The notes beneath the pieces were generated by a model. The model was not told the DNA's origin. It saw only the letters and a list, made by a program, of their open reading frames with translations, and made no database searches. A program made the translations under genes and the position numbers. 64,000 nt of DNA from Leptolyngbya sp. NIES-3755 (lineage in GTDB: Bacteria; Cyanobacteriota; Cyanobacteriia; Leptolyngbyales; Leptolyngbyaceae): the NCBI GenBank assembly GCA_001548435.1, contig AP017311.1, forward strand, positions 1 through 64,000, given 5' to 3'. Positions within the stretch are counted from its first letter, which is position 1. The number at the start of each line of letters is the position of its first letter. Below are positions 13,580 through 26,152 of this stretch, one piece after another.

Positions 13580-15832
13580 TTAATCATTAGATTGAGGCTT
13601 GGTGGTGAGAAGGAATGCAAGGTAAGTGAGTGCAGGAAGTAAAAATGGAAGTAGGACTGAGTAGGAAATATAGAACTGTAAACTTGCTAAACTATAGCCA
13701 ACTGGAACAATAAAAAACCATTTTCGTTGATGTGGGCGCGGAGTGAGTAAGATGACTGTTGCTTTTCCTGCGATCGCAGCAATGATCACCATCCATAGAT
13801 CCGGGATGGGTAGCAACATTCGGCGATTTAATAAACTGTGTACTAAGTAAGCATGAACCGTTCCGCTTGACGTTTTTGCGCTTGCGGTGGGTTGCCAGAA
13901 TTTGAAAGCAAGTGGGCTGATAAAGTAGTCTTCTCCAGGTGTGACTCCTGCATCAATTTGACCGTCTGGGACAATAAGCGCGATCGCATTTGTGCGCTGA
14001 GTGGTATCTTGATTCTGCAAAAGTTTCCAGCTTGGAATCGCCTCGTAGACTTGGCTTGGCGGGATTGAGTAGTCAATCAAGGGATGTAACCAGGTTTGCC
14101 CGAAGAGTGCAGAGAATTGAGTGATTGGCTGAAAGTATAGACGTGGATCTCGTCGATCGAGCGCTTGCGGATTGCACGATCGAACCACTTCATAGGCGAA
14201 TGGTAACACTTCACTTTGAGTTAAGGTATCACCAATCACTCTGGCATAGAAAGCAGGATCACCGAGTAAATCCATATCTCCGCTGCTACCGAACTGCTTG
14301 AAGTCCGGTAGCGCTGTAATCCAGGATTGTTTAGACTGCAAATCTGGAGTAGCTGCAAACACAAACTGTTTACCGGATTGGATAGCGGTTGAGAGCGATG
14401 TTTCTAGAGCGCGATCGCCGGTCGGTTGATGTCGAAACAGAAGATAATTGATGCCAATCACTGAGCTTTCTGATTGTGTGACGCGATCGATAACTTTTGC
14501 CAAATATTGTCGATCGAGGTTCTGTTCAATCATCGTTACTTTGTCTTTCTGAAGCGATTCCTCATTGATTTGAACAAGCAACACTGGAGAAGATTGGGGT
14601 TGAATGCTCTGATTCGTGATTTGGCGATAGAGAGCTTGCACGAACTGGCGTTGATCAATCAGCGCACTTTGAACTGGAAGCAAAACGCTGAGAGAGGCGA
14701 AAATACTGACAGTGATCGCTTCTAAACATTGCGGCTTCCACGGTTTTAGACGGGTTTTCCAAGTCGAGGTTGCGAATCGAAATGGTTTCGCTTGAGGATG
14801 AGAAAAAAGTGAGGGAATCAGATAAGCTGAAGGATAAGTTAAGTTTTTCTCTAACTTGAGAAACTGACAGGCGGAAAGCGTTGCTTCTTGGGCGTTCTGG
14901 TGATTTGATAGATATCTTAAAAAGTGAAGTAGAAAGTCTTTTGCAACATCATCGCGAATCGGTTCACGCATCACGACGACTTGATTTAAACCTAAATTGA
15001 TGAGTGATTCAGCAATACTTAGACCATTACAAGAATTAAAAATAGCAAACTGTAGTCCGCGCTCTTGAGCAAATTTTAGCTGTGGAGCAATTTCGCTAAT
15101 CAGAATCGAAGTGCTTGGAGCAATACCTAATTCGCCACCTGTCAGCGTAGTTTCGTTGCTATGTCCAGCAAAAAACAGAATATCCCATCCTTTTGGGTCA
15201 GCGATCGCATTCCGAATTTGTTGCAGTAATTCAGGAGTTCTAACCTCTGGTTGCCATCCAATGAGATGAATTTCAGCACGATGATTTAACTGTTGTAAAG
15301 CAGCCCGTTCCGCTTCAAAATTCAGACCGGACTCATCGCCCAAAATTACTAAAATGCGATTTTTAGCGCGATCAATCGGTTTTGCTCGTTCGGCACACAG
15401 TGCGAGTGAAGTCCGAATAATCTGAATCGGTTGACTAGAGCCGAATTCTGAGCCAATTTGCCAAGATTCCCAAGGAAGTTTAACGACTTCGGGAGAGTCA
15501 CAGCGGAGATAAAAGATTGAGGTTTTAGTAATTTCGCGACGAATTTCTAGTAGCTCTGCACTGTTCAACCAGTAGTGAAATTCAGCTAAAAAAGCGGCTT
15601 CAGCTTGAACCAGTCGAGTCCGCCAGTCGATTTCGGGTTGTTGAATGTTGAGGACTAACCCAAGACGAGCGCGTAAGGTTGAACGGTAAAACTGAAGATA
15701 AGTACTTTGCCAAGTTTGATAAAGTGTGGTGAGTGTTTCTGGATAAATCAACTTTGCGCTCAAAGTCTGTGTTTCATTCCAGACTAGCTCAAATAAACAG
15801 GTTTGCTCGACGCGCCAAATCTTTAATAACAT
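13580..15832 (-). CDS. CHAT-CHASE2 membrane protein (putative protease sensor)
   Basis: A 750-residue protein combining an N-terminal CHAT (caspase-HetF-associated-with-TPR) domain with a CHASE2 sensor. In the CHAT part the catalytic pair is visible: His224 in LFFAGHSNET and Cys268 in IFNSCNGLS. A transmembrane helix at about 368-390 precedes the CHASE2 domain (about 390-640, with LQRRVEDARLY-like elements replaced here by SESSVIGINYLLF and GDPAFYARVIG). Two or three further transmembrane helices close the protein (about 675-745). The protease part would be cytoplasmic and the sensor extracytoplasmic. It is third in a close minus-strand operon after the sigma-like HTH gene and the DUF1822 gene (4-base gap). 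It is likely to couple an external signal to proteolysis; the substrate is unknown. Confidence 0.85.
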   Translation of the reverse strand: MLLKIWRVEQTCLFELVWNETQTLSAKLIYPETLTTLYQTWQSTYLQFYRSTLRARLGLVLNIQQPEIDWRTRLVQAEAAFLAEFHYWLNSAELLEIRREITKTSIFYLRCDSPEVVKLPWESWQIGSEFGSSQPIQIIRTSLALCAERAKPIDRAKNRILVILGDESGLNFEAERAALQQLNHRAEIHLIGWQPEVRTPELLQQIRNAIADPKGWDILFFAGHSNETTLTGGELGIAPSTSILISEIAPQLKFAQERGLQFAIFNSCNGLSIAESLINLGLNQVVVMREPIRDDVAKDFLLHFLRYLSNHQNAQEATLSACQFLKLEKNLTYPSAYLIPSLFSHPQAKPFRFATSTWKTRLKPWKPQCLEAITVSIFASLSVLLPVQSALIDQRQFVQALYRQITNQSIQPQSSPVLLVQINEESLQKDKVTMIEQNLDRQYLAKVIDRVTQSESSVIGINYLLFRHQPTGDRALETSLSTAIQSGKQFVFAATPDLQSKQSWITALPDFKQFGSSGDMDLLGDPAFYARVIGDTLTQSEVLPFAYEVVRSCNPQALDRRDPRLYFQPITQFSALFGQTWLHPLIDYSIPPSQVYEAIPSWKLLQNQDTTQRTNAIALIVPDGQIDAGVTPGEDYFISPLAFKFWQPTASAKTSSGTVHAYLVHSLLNRRMLLPIPDLWMVIIAAIAGKATVILLTPRPHQRKWFFIVPVGYSLASLQFYISYSVLLPFLLPALTYLAFLLTTKPQSND

Positions 15833-15836
15833 GGCA

Positions 15837-16922
15837 TTAGTAAGGTTGAAAGACGATCGGGGATAAGCTCAAGGAGTCTGTCAGAGTATAATTTTCAGGA
15901 TCGATGCTTCTGAGCGTTAAAGTAAATCTCTCATTCCAGTTTCCAATGATTTGAGCAATCAAATAGGACGATTCTACCTTGGCTGATTCTTCAATTAACA
16001 CCGTATTGCCTTCTTGAACAATCAACTGGGTTCCTACAGGTAACGTTGCAGCATCGATCGATTCTAAAATCACCAGTAAAGACCACTCTGGCTCTGAGGT
16101 TTCCTCCATTGCCCAAGTCGTAACATAAAGCCGAAAGGTATGACGATCGAGTGTGATCGATCGATAACCAGATTGTGCGGTGGATGGAATGTGAATGCCA
16201 GAGCGTTCGATTTCCGTAAACACAGAAGTTACGTCTGCACTAAACGCATCAGCGTGGGATCTCATTGCTGGGACTAACTCAAGCGAGAACAATGTCCAAG
16301 ACCATTCATCAATCTGAGTTTGCGCCCATCGAGCCGCATTCACAAGCGGTTGAATTAACCATTGCGAAGAAATTGCTGTACGAGTTGTAGGTAATGGAAT
16401 TGCGCTGAGTTCTAAACCTGCAACATACCACAACAATTGTTCTACATTGGTTTCACATAAAGAAACTGGAATTAGACAAGTCTCATCGCTGTCTGATTCT
16501 AACGTGAGTCGATCGCCGCGTAAAAACGAATGGAATGAAATCTGATTCGATTCTTCATCAACATTAACAACAACATAGAAGTGAGCAGGATTTTGCAGCA
16601 ATGCGATCGGGAACTCGATCGTATCTTCCACGTCATCGACAGCAATCAATCCAAGATGGAATTGATTCGCATACACAGAATTAATCGCAGCAGGAATACC
16701 AAAGCCTGAAGGTTCAATTAATCGGGCTTGAGAGCGATCGACCCCGATCGGGGTTGAGCGATCGTGCATCCATTGAGTAAAACCCTCAAGGGCAAGCAAA
16801 GCGAGATAGGATTGCCCTTGAGTGAGTGGATTTGGAAGCGTTTGAGTGAATGCGATCGCGGTACTGACTCGATCTGGATCGAGGTCAATTAAGGTAGAGG
16901 CAGCGTTTAACGGAGTTGTCAT
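15837..16922 (-). CDS. DUF1822 family protein
   Basis: The 361-residue soluble protein fits the cyanobacterial DUF1822 family in length and pattern: an N-terminal helix with QSYLALLALEGFTQWMHD, a beta-rich middle (LIAVDDVEDTIEFP, FYVVVNVDEE, SFLRGDRLTLE) and a C-terminal half with VNAARWAQTQIDEWSW and LYVTTWAMEETSEPEWSLLV. No catalytic motif is seen. In cyanobacteria DUF1822 genes commonly sit beside CHAT-CHASE2 genes, as here, so the protein may be a partner or substrate of the CHAT protease. The gene lies 18 bases after the sigma-like gene and 4 bases before the CHAT-CHASE2 gene. Confidence 0.8.
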   Translation of the reverse strand: MTTPLNAASTLIDLDPDRVSTAIAFTQTLPNPLTQGQSYLALLALEGFTQWMHDRSTPIGVDRSQARLIEPSGFGIPAAINSVYANQFHLGLIAVDDVEDTIEFPIALLQNPAHFYVVVNVDEESNQISFHSFLRGDRLTLESDSDETCLIPVSLCETNVEQLLWYVAGLELSAIPLPTTRTAISSQWLIQPLVNAARWAQTQIDEWSWTLFSLELVPAMRSHADAFSADVTSVFTEIERSGIHIPSTAQSGYRSITLDRHTFRLYVTTWAMEETSEPEWSLLVILESIDAATLPVGTQLIVQEGNTVLIEESAKVESSYLIAQIIGNWNERFTLTLRSIDPENYTLTDSLSLSPIVFQPY

Positions 16923-16940
16923 GATGCTTTGAAGATTGAA

Positions 16941-18257
16941 TCAATGTAAGTCGCGACTGAGCAAAGCACAAAGCTGTTCAGCGAACAAATTATCTTTTTG
17001 ATAGGCTTTTGGGGTTTTGGATTGTTGAGCATCCTTCTCTAATAGAGCATCGACTTGATCGCGCAACGCTTCATCGATCGACTCGGCAAATCGGCTTAAC
17101 CGTTCCGGGTCGGTGAAATTTTGCGCGATCGCTGAGATATCGTGTTTCAGTTGGGTCAGGATATGCAACCCCACATCAGCCCGTAACGTTTTTAGTTTCA
17201 ATAATCGCGCAACATTGTCTTGGCGCTTGAGATCGAGTTGTTCCGCAATTTGCGTCATCGTGATCCGCTGGCAGTAAAGCAAATGAAGTGCAACCCGAAA
17301 TTGATTCGCTTTTTGATCTTTCAAACGGCTCGTATAATCGCGAATCACAGCCTCTAGAGCTGCATTCAATGCTTGAATGAATTGAGCGCGGTAGTAATAC
17401 AAAAATTCTTCTGCTGGATCTGATTCGCTTCTAGGAGTTGTAAGCTGTTCTGCTTGACTGGGTTTCTCGTCGATCGATTCTGTCTCGTAGCGATTGAGAC
17501 GATGCTGGCGGAGACATTGCGCGATCGCAAGTAATTGTTTTAGCACTTGAGTTGAAGAAATCGGTTGATTCAGCGTTGTTTGCAACTGATCCGCCATTCG
17601 CTTTAATTGTTCGGGTGTTGGTTCTTTACACCGTCCTTGGCTACCTTCAGAAATACGATCGCTTAAATAAACCGCATGATAGCTTTCTAAATAAAGAATT
17701 GCAGTTTGAATTGCATCAGCCGACCAGTAAAATCGATCGCTCAATATTTGTCCTAAACGCTTGGTCGTCGTACTGTTGAGAATCGCCCAATCGCTTTTTA
17801 AGTAGAGTCCTTGCTGTTTTAGAAACTGATTGAGTTCCGAGTGCTGTCTTACCAATCGAGTCGCCCAAGTGTTGAGAGATGCGATCGCTGGATTGTAGCT
17901 GACTAGAATCTTTTGAGATAACGGATGATATTGACGATTTAGCGTTCCATCGTCATCGAGAACATAGCAAAGAACATCAAACTGATTGAATTGATAATAG
18001 TCTCCGAACTGACGGGCGATCGAGCTTGCTTCTTCTAAGGTGCAGTGGGAAATGAAGCAGCGAAGACACAACTCCGCCTCAGTTGAACCCGCTTGGTAGT
18101 CGCGAACGAGCAATTGCTGTAATTGATTTGATTCCGTGATTTCAGCATAGTTTTGCTCGATGTAGTGATGTGCGATCGCGCATTTTTCCGTCCGATATCC
18201 CCCCGCTGGCTTAATCCGAACTAAAGTCCAGTACTTCCCTATCTCACTCATCGCCAC
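16941..18257 (-). CDS. Protein with sigma-70-like helix-turn-helix region
   Basis: A 438-residue soluble protein, first gene of the minus-strand CHAT-CHASE2 operon. The N-terminal third contains a Cys/His-rich stretch (AELCLRCFISHCTLEEA). At about residues 310-365 an HTH resembling sigma region 4 is seen: ANQFRVALHLLYCQRITMTQ, then IAEQLDLKRQDNVARLLKLK. A helical tail follows. No clear region 2 is visible, so it may be a divergent sigma factor or a DNA-binding regulator rather than a classical sigma factor. Its position next to two CHAT proteins suggests control by proteolysis, but that is inference. The gene is divergent from the TPR-CHAT gene across 181 bases. Confidence 0.6.
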   Translation of the reverse strand: MAMSEIGKYWTLVRIKPAGGYRTEKCAIAHHYIEQNYAEITESNQLQQLLVRDYQAGSTEAELCLRCFISHCTLEEASSIARQFGDYYQFNQFDVLCYVLDDDGTLNRQYHPLSQKILVSYNPAIASLNTWATRLVRQHSELNQFLKQQGLYLKSDWAILNSTTTKRLGQILSDRFYWSADAIQTAILYLESYHAVYLSDRISEGSQGRCKEPTPEQLKRMADQLQTTLNQPISSTQVLKQLLAIAQCLRQHRLNRYETESIDEKPSQAEQLTTPRSESDPAEEFLYYYRAQFIQALNAALEAVIRDYTSRLKDQKANQFRVALHLLYCQRITMTQIAEQLDLKRQDNVARLLKLKTLRADVGLHILTQLKHDISAIAQNFTDPERLSRFAESIDEALRDQVDALLEKDAQQSKTPKAYQKDNLFAEQLCALLSRDLH

Positions 18258-18438
18258 CTCAGTTCCTGCTAGTCAGAGAAAAATGGTTTTATCTTTCCCC
18301 GAAGAAGTTATGACATATCGAAGGGATTCTCGGCAAATTTTCCGAATTCCGTAAATTCAGCGAGAAGAATAAAAAATAAGATACCGCGAATAAGTTTTCT
18401 TCTAAGATGAACTCCGGACGATCGAGGACGAACCGATA
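18258..18438. promoter_or_regulatory. Divergent promoter region of the CHAT locus
   Basis: 181 bases between two divergently transcribed CHAT-linked operons. The sequence is AT-rich around 18365-18405. A GAAGTTATGACA string at about 18304 only loosely resembles the TTGCATAACC motif and was not counted as a site. No operator palindrome was recognised. Confidence 0.4.
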
Positions 18439-21183
18439 ATGCAGCGCTTTCTCAATCTTTTAGCGATCGCAACCCTCTTTATGGGCACCAATGCGCCCTT
18501 AGTGCTGGCTCAAACCGTTGCTCAAACACAACAAATCGATCGCAAATTAGAAGCAGATCGCTTATCAAAACAAGGTCAACAGTACTATGAAACTGAGCAG
18601 CACGAAGCCGCGATCGCATCTTGGGAAGCAGCCCTAAAAATCTATCGGGAAATTGGCGATCGACAAGAAGAAGCAACCGTCTTGAATGATCAAGGACGCT
18701 CTTACACGCTCCTATCTCGTTACGATGAAGGAATTCGTGCGTTTGATCAAGCACTCTCGATTTTCCAGCAACTCCAGCGGCGCAAGGATGCAAGTGTTGT
18801 TCTAATGAATCGCGGCAGTGCCTACTCTGCGTTGTCTCGCCACGAAGATGCACTGCGGTCTTATGATGAAGCTCTATCGATCGTCCGTGAAATCAACGAT
18901 CGTAATCGTGAAGCAAGAATCCTGATGAATCGCAGCATCACGTATGCTTACCTTTCCCGCAACGAGGACGCGATCGCGGGTTTCGATGCTGCTTTAATAA
19001 TTTTCCAAGCCGCAAATGACCGAAACAGTATTGCTGCCGCACTCATGAATCGAGGCATTGTCTATGGTTCCATCTCTCGTTACGACGATGCGATCGCAGC
19101 TTTCAATCAAGCCTTACCCATCTTTCGAGAACTCAAAAATCGTCGTGGTGAAGCCTCCGCACTCTCCAGCCTTGGAGATACTTATCGATTTCTTTCCCGC
19201 TTCGAGGAAGCCCTAACCGCATTCGATCAAGCTTTACCGATCTTGAGAGCAATCAAAGACCAAAACGGGGAAGCAGCCGTTTTGATGAATCGGGGAGTCG
19301 TTTACGATTTGCTCGATCGCAATGATGAAGCGATCGCCGCTTACACCGAAGCTTTATCGATTTTTCGATCGATTAAAAATGCTCAAGGGGAAGCAGAAGC
19401 ACTGAGTAACTTAGGAATTATCTATGGCGCGCTCTCTCGGCATTCTGATTCAATTCAGGCACATACACAAGCCCTCTCAATCTACCGAGCTATCAGAAGC
19501 CGCGACGGGGAAGGATTAGCATTGATGAATCGCGGAATTGCTTATGCTATGATTTCGCGCTATGAGGATGCAATTCAAGCGTATACAGAGGCTTTACCCC
19601 TTTACCGAGCCGTCAACAACCGGAATGGAGAGGCTCAAGTTCTATTGAATCAAGGAAATGCTTATCAATCCTTGCGGCGCTACGAAGATGCCATCCGCTT
19701 CTACAATCAAGCACTACCGATTTATCGGGCGGTCAAAGATAGAGATGGAGAAGCACGAGCCTTGTACAATTTGGGTGCGACTTATTTCGAGACAAGTCGA
19801 TTTGCTCCAGCAGAACAATCCCTGAAAAGCGCGATCGCAGTGTTTGAATCGATCCGGCTCGATCGACTCTCCGAAGCGAATAAGATCTCATTTTTTGAAA
19901 CTCAAGCAGTGAGCTATCGCATCTTACAAGAGGTGATGATTGCACAGAAAAAATATGAGGCAGCACTGACGATTTCAGAATGGGGGCGAACCAAAGCTTT
20001 AGTAGAACGATTAAGTCAACAGTTACAGCCGACTGTTTCACCGTCTCAAGCAGCACCGGATATCAATCAGCTTCGACAAATTGCGAAATTTCAGAATGCC
20101 ACGCTGGTTGAATACTCACTTAATGAACGCAAGCAAGAACTCTACATCTGGGTTATTCAATCCACTGGAGCGATCGACTTTCGACAAGTAAAGTTAACAG
20201 ATGTTTTACCCAAACAATGTGCTTCGATCACACAGTTAATTGGGAATGGTCGTTACTCGATCGGGGTTCGGAGTGCCCAATCTGATTGGTTGATTGTGGA
20301 AGACACAGCCCAAAAGAATCCCTGTGCCCAGTCTGAGCGAGATGCTAATTTTAGAACGCTGCATCGATTATTAATCGAACCGATTGCCTCTCTACTTCCG
20401 ACTGATCCAAATCAGCACATTGTTTTTATCCCGGATGGAACACTCTTCCTCGTTCCTTTTCCTGCTCTCAAAGCTGCAAACGGTCAATTCTTAATCGAGC
20501 AACATACGATTCGGACTGCTTCTTCGATTCAACTGCTAGATAAAACTCGTGCGCTCCGTTCCCGTCCAAAAGGAAATAATGCGCTGATTATCGGTAATCC
20601 ATTGATGCCGATTGATCCGAATTCTCCACAAGCGAAACGGCTAACGAATCTACCGAATGCAGAACAGGAAGCTAGAGCGATCGCGCCTTTATTCAACACA
20701 CAAGCAATCACAGGTAAAGCAGGCACAAAAGAAACAATCCTTCAGCAAATCTCTGATGCCAGAATCATTCATTTCGCAACACATGGATCGTTTTCCGATC
20801 GTAATGGTTTCAAAAGCTGGTTGGCGCTTGCTCCTTCTGAAAAAGATAGTGGCATCTTAACGGCTGAAGAAGTTGCACAACTGAAGTTAAACGCGGATTT
20901 AGTGGTCTTAAGTGCTTGTGATACTGGACGTGGACGAGTGACGGGCGATGGTGTTGTCGGATTATCTCGATCGTTTATTGCCGCAGGAGTTCCGAGCGTG
21001 ATTGTTTCGCTCTGGGCTGTTCCTGATGCTCCTACCGCAGAACTGATGCAGCAATTCTATCAGCAATTAAAACGCAATCCTGATAAAGCTCAAGCTCTCA
21101 GACAAGCAATGTTAACCACGCTGAAAACACATCCGAACCCGAAGGATTGGGCAGCCTTCACACTGATTGGAGAAGCACGATGA
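18439..21183 (+). CDS. Exported TPR-CHAT protease-like protein
   Basis: This 914-residue protein has a signal-like N-terminus (hydrophobic region about 7-24, ending LVLAQTVAQ), about eleven TPR units of 40 residues (about 45-480; typical unit ALMNRGIAYAMISRYEDAI), and a C-terminal CHAT domain (about 590-910). The catalytic histidine is His782 in HFATHGS and the cysteine is Cys827 in LSACDTG; LFLVPFPAL and VPSVIVSLWAV are also family landmarks. CHAT domains are caspase-fold peptidases, often triggered by partners bound to their TPR region. The stop overlaps the start of the caspase-like gene (ATGA). The gene is divergent from the sigma-like/DUF1822/CHAT-CHASE2 operon, so two CHAT proteins share one locus. 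Confidence 0.9.
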   Translation: MQRFLNLLAIATLFMGTNAPLVLAQTVAQTQQIDRKLEADRLSKQGQQYYETEQHEAAIASWEAALKIYREIGDRQEEATVLNDQGRSYTLLSRYDEGIRAFDQALSIFQQLQRRKDASVVLMNRGSAYSALSRHEDALRSYDEALSIVREINDRNREARILMNRSITYAYLSRNEDAIAGFDAALIIFQAANDRNSIAAALMNRGIVYGSISRYDDAIAAFNQALPIFRELKNRRGEASALSSLGDTYRFLSRFEEALTAFDQALPILRAIKDQNGEAAVLMNRGVVYDLLDRNDEAIAAYTEALSIFRSIKNAQGEAEALSNLGIIYGALSRHSDSIQAHTQALSIYRAIRSRDGEGLALMNRGIAYAMISRYEDAIQAYTEALPLYRAVNNRNGEAQVLLNQGNAYQSLRRYEDAIRFYNQALPIYRAVKDRDGEARALYNLGATYFETSRFAPAEQSLKSAIAVFESIRLDRLSEANKISFFETQAVSYRILQEVMIAQKKYEAALTISEWGRTKALVERLSQQLQPTVSPSQAAPDINQLRQIAKFQNATLVEYSLNERKQELYIWVIQSTGAIDFRQVKLTDVLPKQCASITQLIGNGRYSIGVRSAQSDWLIVEDTAQKNPCAQSERDANFRTLHRLLIEPIASLLPTDPNQHIVFIPDGTLFLVPFPALKAANGQFLIEQHTIRTASSIQLLDKTRALRSRPKGNNALIIGNPLMPIDPNSPQAKRLTNLPNAEQEARAIAPLFNTQAITGKAGTKETILQQISDARIIHFATHGSFSDRNGFKSWLALAPSEKDSGILTAEEVAQLKLNADLVVLSACDTGRGRVTGDGVVGLSRSFIAAGVPSVIVSLWAVPDAPTAELMQQFYQQLKRNPDKAQALRQAMLTTLKTHPNPKDWAAFTLIGEAR

Positions 21184-23231
21184 AACGTCGGTATTTTCTT
21201 CAAACGACAGCTTTGAGTGCGATTTATCTCGCTCAAGCGGAGCGGTATCGTCGGGTACTCGCTCGATCGAGTCCACGCAAACTTGCATTATTAGTGGGCA
21301 TCAATCATTATTTGGAAACTCGCGACCGCGCTCTTTCCCCATTAAACGGCTGTCAAACTGATGTCGAACTCCAACGCGAGCTTTTGATTCATCGCTTTGG
21401 CTTCAAACCCTCAGACATCAAAATTTTGCTCAATCAAGATGCAACTCGAAGCAACATCCTACAAACCTTCGAGACGCATCTGATTCAACAAGCGAACTCA
21501 GACGATATTGTTGTCTTTCACTTCTCAGGACATGGCTCACGAGTGTTTGATTCTGAAGCAATCACCTCAGATCAAACAAATACTGCTTTCGTTCCTGCTG
21601 ATTCAAATCATCTTAATCCCGATCGAAGTGTAAATGACATCATGGGCAAGACCTTATTTCTATTGATGTCAGCCCTGAAAACCGACAATGTGACCGCTGT
21701 TTTTGATTGTTGTTACTCAGGTGGTGGAACTCGCGGTAGTGAAAGAGTTCGAGCCGATGCAAACAATATGCTCCATCCACCGAGCAAAGCAGAGATTAAC
21801 TATCAGAAAGATTGGATGCGAAAGCTAGGATTAACGCCTGAACAGTTACGCGATCGCAGAAAGCAAGGCGCAAGAGGTGTAATTCTTGCGGCAGCTACAG
21901 CAAACCAACTTGCAAAAGAAAATGATTTTGCTGATGTGTCTTCAGGCTTATTTACTTATTTCCTCACTCAATACCTTTGGGAGTCAGCGGAAAGTTTAAC
22001 GGATGCCGAAGCAATGATTAAACGATCGCTGTTCACCGCTACAGGCTTTCAAGAACCTGTTTTTGATGTTAGACCCGAACTCATGACAAAGCCAATCTAC
22101 TTCATGCCTCCGATTCACCGATCGGCTCAAGCTGTGGTGCAATCGATTCGGCAAGATCAAGCTATTCTTTGGTTAGGAGGATTAGATAAGAGAACATTGG
22201 AATCGTTTGGAACGGGATCAACATTCTCAACGTTAGAGGGAACAGAAACAGTCACGATCGTTAAGCGAAAAGGACTAACCGCGATCGCAAAAAGTTCTAG
22301 CAAACTTCGATCAGGAACATTGCTGAAAGAATCTTCGCGAGTCATTCCAAGAACAATCAAACTCCGGATTGGTTTAGATTCATCTCTTGCTGGTCAAGCA
22401 CCGAAGATCGAGAGCGATCGCATCGAATTCATTCTGGCTCAAAACGGTTCTTATCCTCAATTCGTTCACTATATTCTCAGTCGTGTGACTTCTGGATCGC
22501 TGTCAGCCCCTTTGAACAGCATTGCACTCTTCTCACCAAGCTTAGAAATGCTGCCTGATTCATTTGAGCAAGCAGAAGAATCGCTTTCAGATGCGATCGC
22601 ACGTCTCACCCCAAGATTTCAGGGACTTTTCGCCGCTCATCTCATTCGTCAAACCCTCAACCCGACTGCTTCTCAGCTAAACATTGAAGTTCTGCTACAT
22701 CGCCAAGATCAACCAAATCAAATCATTGCTCAATCCAGTACTGCTCGAATTTCAAACATTCATAATCAGCCGATCCCAGTTAAAACGCCCTGCCAATTTC
22801 AGATTAAAAATCACGATCGTTCACCGCTTTATCTACTCATTGCCTTAATCAGTTCGAATGGGCGTTTTTCGATTGTTTTTCCGAACGACTATATTAGCGG
22901 CGATTTAAGCGGTGAAGTCTCTGCAAAAGCAACTCGATTCGTTCCTGATCCCGTTCAAGGTGAAACATTCAAAATTGCACCCCCTTTAGTTGGACGAGGT
23001 GAAGCGTTAATTGTTGCAAGTCGTAATCCCCTCACGAGAACTTATAAACAACTCAGAACACTCACCGAGGAATCCGATCGAATGCCGATCGTGATCGCAA
23101 CTCAGCGTGGAATTGATGCGATCGAGAATCTTCTCTCTGATCTCGATCGTCAATCCGATCATTCTGCTTACAAGATTAGCACTGAAGATGTTGCGACCCT
23201 TTTTCTAGCATTCCAAATTATTACTGCATAA
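21180..23231 (+). CDS. Caspase family protein (metacaspase-like, peptidase C14)
   Basis: I set the start at the ATG of 21180, inside the TPR-CHAT stop (ATGA); a longer reading from 21147 would add eleven residues. The 683-residue protein opens with KRRYFLQTTALSA, resembling a Tat-type or simple signal. The p20 caspase domain follows at about 35-270. The catalytic pair is His118 in FHFSGHGSR and Cys178 in AVFDCCYSGG, and LALLVGINHY marks the first strand. The C-terminal 400 residues carry no recognised domain but contain LYLLIALISSNGRFSIVFPN, typical of a DUF4384-like region found after cyanobacterial caspases. Metacaspases usually cut after Arg or Lys. Coupling to the TPR-CHAT gene suggests the two work together. 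Confidence 0.9.
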   Translation: MKRRYFLQTTALSAIYLAQAERYRRVLARSSPRKLALLVGINHYLETRDRALSPLNGCQTDVELQRELLIHRFGFKPSDIKILLNQDATRSNILQTFETHLIQQANSDDIVVFHFSGHGSRVFDSEAITSDQTNTAFVPADSNHLNPDRSVNDIMGKTLFLLMSALKTDNVTAVFDCCYSGGGTRGSERVRADANNMLHPPSKAEINYQKDWMRKLGLTPEQLRDRRKQGARGVILAAATANQLAKENDFADVSSGLFTYFLTQYLWESAESLTDAEAMIKRSLFTATGFQEPVFDVRPELMTKPIYFMPPIHRSAQAVVQSIRQDQAILWLGGLDKRTLESFGTGSTFSTLEGTETVTIVKRKGLTAIAKSSSKLRSGTLLKESSRVIPRTIKLRIGLDSSLAGQAPKIESDRIEFILAQNGSYPQFVHYILSRVTSGSLSAPLNSIALFSPSLEMLPDSFEQAEESLSDAIARLTPRFQGLFAAHLIRQTLNPTASQLNIEVLLHRQDQPNQIIAQSSTARISNIHNQPIPVKTPCQFQIKNHDRSPLYLLIALISSNGRFSIVFPNDYISGDLSGEVSAKATRFVPDPVQGETFKIAPPLVGRGEALIVASRNPLTRTYKQLRTLTEESDRMPIVIATQRGIDAIENLLSDLDRQSDHSAYKISTEDVATLFLAFQIITA

Positions 23232-23249: not shown

Positions 23250-23285
23250 CTAAAAACGATGACCGCTCGATCTAAACTCACAATC

Positions 23286-25459: not shown

Positions 25460-26152
25460 TTATTTTCCAGTACGGTTTGATTCAGCATCCTCTAGTTGAG
25501 TGAGCAACTCGTTCATTGCTGCTTGTCGATCGCGAGCAGGCAGAGTCGATCGATCAATCTCCTGAATCACATCAGACCACAAGCCGTAACTCGCAAACAC
25601 CTCAATCCGTCGCTGTAATCGTGCTAGAGGTTTGAGCTTGTTATCGATGCGGTTGAGTGCTGTGGTAACTTTTTGACGTTGAGCGATCGACATCACTTCA
25701 AAGTCCCAACCCACGATAGTTTCGTCTTTTTTAAGATCAGCATTCCACTTTACTAATCTCAAAAAGTAGGCTTTACCAGGTTCTAATTTAGCTGTAATTG
25801 GAATCGTTCGATTCAGTTGCGCCCGTTGGCTCCAAATCGGAGAATTTGAACTTCTTAGAAGAATCTCTACACGATCGGGAACAAAGCTCGCGTTTGGTTC
25901 ACTTTGCCAGACTAAGCTTGGTTGCAGCGCCCAAATCTGTTTTGACTGTACACCAGGGGTTAGCACTTTCCAACCGTAATACGGATCGCGACCCCCTCCT
26001 CTTTTTCGAGGAAGCGGAGAACGAGAAACAACACGCCGAAGAAAGGATTGCCAGTTTGACTGTTGTTGTGCTTGAACAGCAGGAGAATCAGCTAGCACGA
26101 TGGCTGGAGAGGCAACCAGGAAGCTCATCAGAATTAGAGTTTGTTTCATCAT
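25460..26152 (-). CDS. Exported protein, unknown function
   Basis: The 230-residue protein has a signal peptide (hydrophobic about 5-20, likely cleaved after VQAQ) and a basic, Gly-rich stretch (LPRKRGGGRDP). A beta-sandwich-like middle follows (IWALQPSLVWQSE, VEILLRSSNSPIW, LEPGKAYFLRLVKWNA), reminiscent of the DUF928-type envelope proteins of cyanobacteria, and then a helical tail with LWSDVIQEIDRSTLPARDRQ. The family assignment is tentative. No TTGCATAACC site precedes it, unlike its neighbours. Confidence 0.6.
   Translation of the reverse strand: MMKQTLILMSFLVASPAIVLADSPAVQAQQQSNWQSFLRRVVSRSPLPRKRGGGRDPYYGWKVLTPGVQSKQIWALQPSLVWQSEPNASFVPDRVEILLRSSNSPIWSQRAQLNRTIPITAKLEPGKAYFLRLVKWNADLKKDETIVGWDFEVMSIAQRQKVTTALNRIDNKLKPLARLQRRIEVFASYGLWSDVIQEIDRSTLPARDRQAAMNELLTQLEDAESNRTGK

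Follow-up and report, generated by a model that had tools for sequence, protein, structure and literature searches.

The question raised by this locus is whether five neighboring genes, which encode two CHAT proteins, a caspase-fold protein, a DUF1822 protein and a sigma-like HTH protein, form a single proteolytic signaling system, and how far such a system resembles Craspase. The genes lie in a 64,000-nucleotide stretch of Leptolyngbya sp. NIES-3755 (contig AP017311.1, positions 1 to 64,000), hereafter the window, which corresponds to contig C4 of a 6.76-Mb, four-contig genome. Plasmid p1 of Leptolyngbya boryana IU 594 (locus L040) carries a counterpart of the block, with the genes annotated as caspase family protein, CHAT domain protein, hypothetical protein, DUF1822 family protein and CHASE2 domain protein. 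C4 is accordingly likely to be a plasmid itself. The five ORFs described in an earlier note are present at the positions it gave (Table 1), and the Pfam families fit four of them, the HTH protein having no Pfam match. Catalytic His/Cys pairs were found, as that note had claimed, in the CHAT-CHASE2, TPR-CHAT and caspase ORFs, the last carrying GHG and DCCYSG motifs, and the proposed coupling of the TPR-CHAT and caspase genes was borne out, the likeliest caspase start, the ATG at 21180, overlapping the TPR-CHAT TGA as ATGA. On this locus PADLOC matched only its generic TPR and caspase models. The reading preferred here, which is held with roughly even confidence, is that of a plasmid-type EACC2/ECF-sigma/DUF1822 operon, extended by exported-looking caspase-fold proteins, that would act as a proteolytic sigma-release pathway; it builds on gene order, protein families, the CHAT dyad, sigma homology, conservation of the divergent region and TPR-CHAT enrichment.

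Table 1. Features of the locus, with positions in the window
Feature	Coordinates	Strand	Size and remarks
CHAT-CHASE2 protein: EACC2-like N-terminal domain, CHAT (His224/Cys268), TM, CHASE2, C-terminal TMs	13580..15832	-	750 aa; putative sensor protease
DUF1822 protein	15837..16922	-	361 aa; Pfam 73 bits; candidate sigma-binding partner or inhibitor
Predicted divergent sigma-70-family protein (SIG; HTH protein)	16941..18257	-	438 aa; assigned by profile comparison
Divergent intergenic region	18258..18438		181 bp; likely shared regulatory region
TPR-CHAT protein with Sec-like signal	18439..21183	+	914 aa; His782/Cys827; Pfam CHAT 261 bits and TPRs
Caspase (C14) and DUF4384 protein	21180..23231	+	683 aa from ATG; Pfam C14 78 bits, DUF4384 30 bits
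Putatively secreted DUF928-like protein	25460..26152	-	230 aa; displaced homolog of relatives' post-operon gene

The core operon is a member of a published class. In its sections on EACC2, the study of Kaur, Iyer, Burroughs and Aravind (eLife 2021; PMC8195603) describes proteins with a constant EACC2 domain, a caspase domain and a variable C-terminus, CHASE2 included, reports genes for an ECF sigma and DUF1822 in most EACC2-caspase neighborhoods without TRADD-N, and proposes proteolytic signaling that possibly ends in transcription. The CHAT-CHASE2 protein of the window follows this domain plan: a conserved N-terminal domain comes first, then a caspase-fold domain, and the C-terminus varies (33-protein alignment and Pfam). 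The sigma-family and DUF1822 neighbors are present as well; the EACC2 assignment of the N-terminal domain rests on this architecture. What sets the locus apart as a variant is the exported-looking TPR-CHAT and caspase across a conserved divergent region, together with a DUF928-like gene; the sections of PMC8195603 on these neighborhoods do not mention TPR-CHAT or Tat-like caspase neighbors, and DUF928 does not appear in its main text. A literature search found no experimental work on the core operon.

The three-gene operon is strongly conserved in cyanobacteria, and the neighborhood survey that the earlier note had called for found the order sigma, DUF1822, CHAT-CHASE2 to be kept. A sigma-like gene lies immediately upstream of 34 of 41 DUF1822 genes (40 loci, hand-picked among the best matches listed across the phylum), 18 of these being of the long or 390-aa form and 16 of the short form described below; an EACC2-CHAT gene lies immediately downstream of 25, and 20 have both neighbors. 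Counts from a sample of 36 loci chosen by SIG similarity were kept separate from these, and in loci selected by the sigma protein the sigma gene is upstream in 26/26, with EACC2-CHAT downstream in 20/26 and both in 20/26. Locus L155, a duplicate of L040, was excluded from the neighborhood, enrichment and catalytic-motif counts, and both are included in the signal-peptide tallies. When sigma-DUF1822 pairs with a sigma protein of at least 300 aa are taken, the window included, EACC2-CHAT is found within 6 kb in 31 of 60; for 12 of the 29 other pairs, a gene for a TPR-CHAT or a caspase lies no more than 6.5 kb away, among them L156, in which EACC2-CHAT sits just past the 6-kb limit. Tat-type caspase homologs occur about 6 kb from the sigma-DUF1822 pair at L073:1721-3826 and L074:1477-3576; both lack recognizable GHG and DxC patterns and are perhaps inactive.

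The CHAT-CHASE2 protein is recognized by Pfam through both of its named domains (CHAT 33.6 bits, CHASE2 48.3 bits), and its His224/Cys268 dyad is invariant in 33/33 aligned relatives, the alignment comprising 33 of the 51 ORFs found. Hydrophobic segments were called at residues 369-387, after CHAT, and at 672-690 and 726-744; in the relative L042 a further one was called at 706-724. By our own count, 22 of the 33 proteins in the alignment have a segment directly after CHAT, a proportion that counts against the preferred reading. In CHASE2 proteins, the CHASE2 domain lies outside. As the first hydrophobic segment follows CHAT and more are found at the C-terminus, the CHAT of this membrane protein is expected to be cytoplasmic and the CHASE2 domain to be outside. 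The C-termini of EACC2-CHAT proteins are assigned by Pfam to CHASE2, Peripla_BP_6, NACHT or nSTAND1 with WD40, while HEAT and GUN4 are seen below cut-offs.

The identity of the HTH protein has to be drawn from profile comparison, as the window protein has no match in Pfam, NCBIfam or PADLOC at E 0.001. Its reading frame can start with GTG at 18257, although ATG at 18251 is likelier and matches L039. The protein is a member of a family that comes in two sizes, a long form (about 440-520 aa) and one of roughly 390 aa, and the sigma-70 homology suggested by the earlier note is backed by profile links that run through the latter: the long-form profile matches the 390-aa subfamily (98.3%, E 1.2e-14, 292 columns), and the 390-aa profile matches sigma factor 1l0o among PDB sequences (E 7.5e-7 for the whole sequence, with segments falling at regions 2 and 4) and, by hhalign, region 4 of ECF sigmas from the same genome (96.1%, E 2.8e-9). 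In the relatives L117 and L073, Sigma70_r4 scores above its cut-off, with region 2 under cut-off. Counting against the preferred reading, the 1l0o segments are weak when taken singly (E 1.6 and 0.005), long-form SIG compared straight with ECF sigmas reaches 82%, and a mixed SIG profile against the PDB has an HTH deoxyribonucleoside regulator as its top match (E 3.8e-5), SigF being second (1e-4). A shorter sigma-like gene (mostly 214-328 aa) replaces SIG in other genomes; its match to ECF sigmas covers regions 2 and 4 (96.9%, E 1.8e-10), and a comparison of the two families by hhalign was negative (about 3%), each alone reaching sigma factors. We take the HTH protein to be a predicted divergent sigma-70-family protein. 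No relative was confirmed in three scans of viral contigs, and a search of genome contigs gave one locus, L039, which is apparently the same contig as L041, the two agreeing in contig and gene lengths.

The DUF1822 gene of the window is the single DUF1822 match of its own genome, and among the 291 genomes sampled across the phylum, 191 contain a match to the domain. The discussion of DUF1822 in PMC8195603 treats it as a TPR protein, whereas the window protein matches no TPR family in Pfam at E 0.001; residues of about 250-355 are predicted as strands (block pLDDT 47-79, in a poor model), which agrees with the absent TPR match. The DUF1822 profile gave only chance-like matches against PDB sequences (best E 0.009) and no relation to anti-sigma factors. 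AlphaFold2 models of DUF1822 and SIG, made from two-row alignments, were unusable (mean pLDDT 42.7 and 40.4), and Foldseek with these models returned no match at E 0.001.

The region between the divergent genes is 92.7% identical in the window and the L. boryana plasmid, in a comparison of this one genome pair, as against 77.7% and 71.6% at the third codon positions of the flanking genes, and it contains a 97-bp run (18291-18387, own count) that is identical in the two. The flanking genes have 84-89% identity over their full length; their identical coding runs of up to 80 bp, like the restriction to one genome pair, count against the preferred reading. We consider the 181 bp to be a likely shared regulatory region; queried as 194 bp, it has no significant second copy in its own genome, the one match being of 24 bp (E 0.6).

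When the upstream regions of 18 long-form SIG genes were submitted to a Gibbs search, it suggested the motif TGCATAR-N13-AGA, with 15.3 bits of information at width 30 compared to 12.9-13.5 in six shuffled sets. It occurs 20 times in the study loci at spacing 13, as opposed to 0-12 times at 15 other spacings; 7 of these copies lie upstream of SIG and belong to the training set, and the other 13 are in other places. With S added after R, the 19 genomes with a SIG match contain 157 copies, compared with 114 when the spacing is one longer and 66 in the reversed control (own sums), and the 16 genomes without a SIG match contain 68 versus 61 and 47, this second group being impure, as G009 has a 403-aa family member (L153). 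A copy with one mismatch, TGTCATAA-N13-AGA, was read by eye at 18292-18315 on the minus strand, inside the identical block. Elements similar to the motif precede other ORFs in the window and in relatives, and genome-wide motif counts revealed no SIG regulon, which is a further point against the preferred reading; TGCATAR-N13-AGA is put forward as a candidate promoter motif and as a lead only. An intergenic element, TGCATAACCT-N-AAACCTAAACC, recurs in the window at 23225 (+), 24123 (+) and 29218 (-), the first two copies being just upstream of the ORFs at 23259 and 24225.

The analogy to Craspase drawn in the earlier note can be kept in part. In the account of PMC10028731, Csx29 cleaves the sigma inhibitor Csx30, and the likeness to this type III-E system (Csx29-Csx30-CASP-sigma) is that a CHAT protease is tied to a sigma factor via a third, sigma-binding protein. 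As described there, Craspase is triggered by RNA through Cas7-11 and its protease is the TPR-CHAT protein Csx29; here, in contrast, the predicted cytoplasmic CHAT belongs to a membrane-anchored CHASE2 protein, and the TPR-CHAT has features of export. Craspase has a cytoplasmic TPR-CHAT; that of the window carries, as judged by a simple hydrophobicity heuristic, a Sec-like signal peptide, and at 30.1 bits against the NCBIfam model CAS_csx29 (cut-off 300) it is not Csx29. Looking exported, it would be unable to release a cytoplasmic sigma factor, which the membrane CHAT could do. The analogy thus holds for the CHAT of the membrane protein, which is expected on the side of the sigma factor, and is not supported for the TPR-CHAT as a Craspase-type sigma-releasing protease, given its predicted export signal and weak Csx29 score.

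By the same heuristic, signal-like N-termini are present in 17 of 22 TPR-CHATs and 30 of 33 DUF928-like proteins, and in 5 of 75 DUF1822, 7 of 60 SIG and 1 of 15 short sigma proteins. Only 2 of 9 caspases have one, the window protein not among them, and this counts against the preferred reading; the window caspase does have a twin-arginine N-terminus, KRRYFLQ. Both the TPR-CHAT and the caspase are expected to act outside the cytoplasm, with the expectation weaker for the caspase, where it comes from the twin-arginine motif only.

A further gene may belong to the module. In relatives a DUF928-like gene often follows the operon: it does so in 9 of the 25 DUF1822-picked and 13 of the 20 sigma-picked cases with EACC2-CHAT downstream; in the window it is missing from this place, and an oxidoreductase gene comes next at a distance of 16 bp. 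The displaced homolog in Table 1, which has a signal peptide by the heuristic, resembles the fourth gene of the chromosomal L. boryana copy (L042; phmmer 3.9e-104) more than that of the plasmid copy (L040; 3.2e-72). The DUF928 label derives from an iterated profile taking in 12 of 13 DUF928 matches, for which drift is possible; the DUF928 matches in relatives are sub-threshold, and the window protein itself has none. Its gene, set apart from the operon, may have been relocated or may be the survivor of two copies. L042, on the chromosome of the L. boryana-like genome G002, carries the module a second time in rearranged form, with a Tat-type caspase gene sitting between the CHAT-CHASE2/DUF928-like genes and sigma-DUF1822. 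CHAT, DUF928 and CHASE2 genes also cluster on the chromosome of the window's own genome (C1:1163197-1165741 and 1708147-1711068), as do CHAT and DUF928 at C1:3870555-3872155, with CHASE2 absent there among the matches listed, so that these families also group outside the sigma operon.

In the mechanism proposed for the preferred reading, CHASE2 would perceive a periplasmic or envelope signal and switch on the cytoplasmic CHAT, which would cut or otherwise displace DUF1822, the presumed normal holder of the sigma protein. Once freed, the sigma would drive transcription of the operon that encodes it and also of the TPR-CHAT and caspase genes on the other side of the shared region, whose products may act in the envelope alongside the DUF928-like protein. 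The scheme of the earlier note, from CHASE2 through CHAT to sigma, is thereby retained as the best reading, near the proposal of Kaur et al., with proteolysis as its conjectural step.

Whether the TPR-CHAT/caspase pair takes part depends on how it is distributed. A TPR-CHAT gene is found within 5 kb of 13 of 46 EACC2 operons (38 genomes; the window and L155-L157 excluded), against about 2.7 expected from each genome's CHAT density (P about 1e-6, assuming uniform gene scatter); these loci are partly related, several genomes contribute more than one, and in genomes with at least 32 CHAT matches the larger first-look candidate number was used, which raises the expectation. Hand-placed control regions have it in 0/20, where about one is expected. 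That TPR-CHAT genes are found near EACC2 operons above chance is new here. The pair could instead be independent, a chance divergent neighbor of the sigma operon, as no TPR-CHAT gene lies within 5 kb of 33 of the 46 operons, which counts against the preferred reading, and CHAT and caspase genes adjoin elsewhere among the matches listed, e.g., in G014:C79, G025:C269, G026:C429 and G081:C186. This is unlikely given the enrichment, the runs of sigma, DUF1822 and TPR-CHAT genes in that order on one strand in L117, L201 and L213, the intergenic conservation above third codon positions, and the similarity of the two plasmids, which ends right after the caspase. The caspase adjoins the module in the window, the L. 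boryana plasmid and the L. boryana chromosomal copy, with further caspase matches in L045, L063, L073, L074 and L154; the enrichment figure concerns TPR-CHAT only. From the enrichment and the conserved divergent region, TPR-CHAT is a facultative but non-random partner of the operon and is probably co-regulated with it. The earlier claim of one five-gene system thus stands for the conserved three-gene operon and is weakened for the TPR-CHAT by those 33 operons.

Two other explanations concern what the proteases do. The locus could be an immune or suicide module, in which the EACC2-CHAT is self-activated via its C-terminal sensor and the sigma and caspases serve death or phage defense; activation by autopeptidase activity and conflict roles are proposed in the relevant sections of PMC8195603, NACHT or nSTAND1-WD40 sensors occur on related proteins, and relatives' copies are on plasmids. 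We judge this somewhat unlikely, since PADLOC gives just generic models, the phylum-wide occurrence of DUF1822 looks housekeeping and not patchy, and exported proteins are ill-suited to cytosolic killing. It could also be that CHAT destroys the sigma protein itself or cuts only its own linker, DUF1822 being a scaffold; the constant three-gene order is silent on which partner is the substrate, but the inhibitor is what is cut in the HetF-PatU3 and Csx29-Csx30 precedents, and this option appears distinctly improbable.

As a precedent for the preferred sigma-release reading, the Anabaena CHAT protease HetF is of particular relevance: according to the parts of PMC12288457, PMC7377430 and PMC8406250 that treat these proteins, it is able to cut PatU3, a protein that binds HetZ and holds it in check; HetZ has 401 aa, and its gene is just upstream of patU. 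HetF is described in PMC8406250 as having an N-terminal CHAT and one predicted TM segment, a layout resembling that of the CHAT-CHASE2 protein, and the length of HetZ, with patU downstream, can be set beside sigma-DUF1822 pairs without EACC2, which are often of 386-407 and 379-400 aa. By locus tag hetF (alr3546) and hetZ (alr0099) are not neighbors. A HetR-type pattern was found upstream of 1 of 17 HetZ-like candidates, giving no support for a HetZ link, and amiC/murI neighbors were not recognized by eye in the candidates' gene lists. By analogy, HetF-PatU3-HetZ may be regarded as a close functional precedent for the module. RseA/DegS-RpoE, as outlined in PMC10028731, is alike in its envelope signal and proteolysed sigma inhibitor; it differs in its protease, and the window module has no identified membrane anti-sigma factor.

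Cyanobacteria carry many such proteins: among the matches listed, a sampled genome can have dozens of CHAT matches and several caspase matches. These are mostly without an assigned role, and the operon connects one such protein with both a sigma factor and a sensor, which gives a pathway that could be reconstituted. If DUF1822 is a cleaved inhibitor, this would explain the presence of the domain in so many of the sampled genomes and could recast the action of HetZ in heterocyst development. Tentatively, a sigma-like protein, DUF1822 and a caspase-fold protease may represent a general cyanobacterial route from proteolysis to transcription, with interchangeable sensors (CHASE2, periplasmic-binding, NACHT, nSTAND-WD40) and proteases (EACC2-CHAT, TPR-CHAT, caspase), of which HetF-PatU3-HetZ would be the developmental member; if so, HetZ would itself be sigma-like, and PatU3 would be an anti-sigma of the DUF1822 type.
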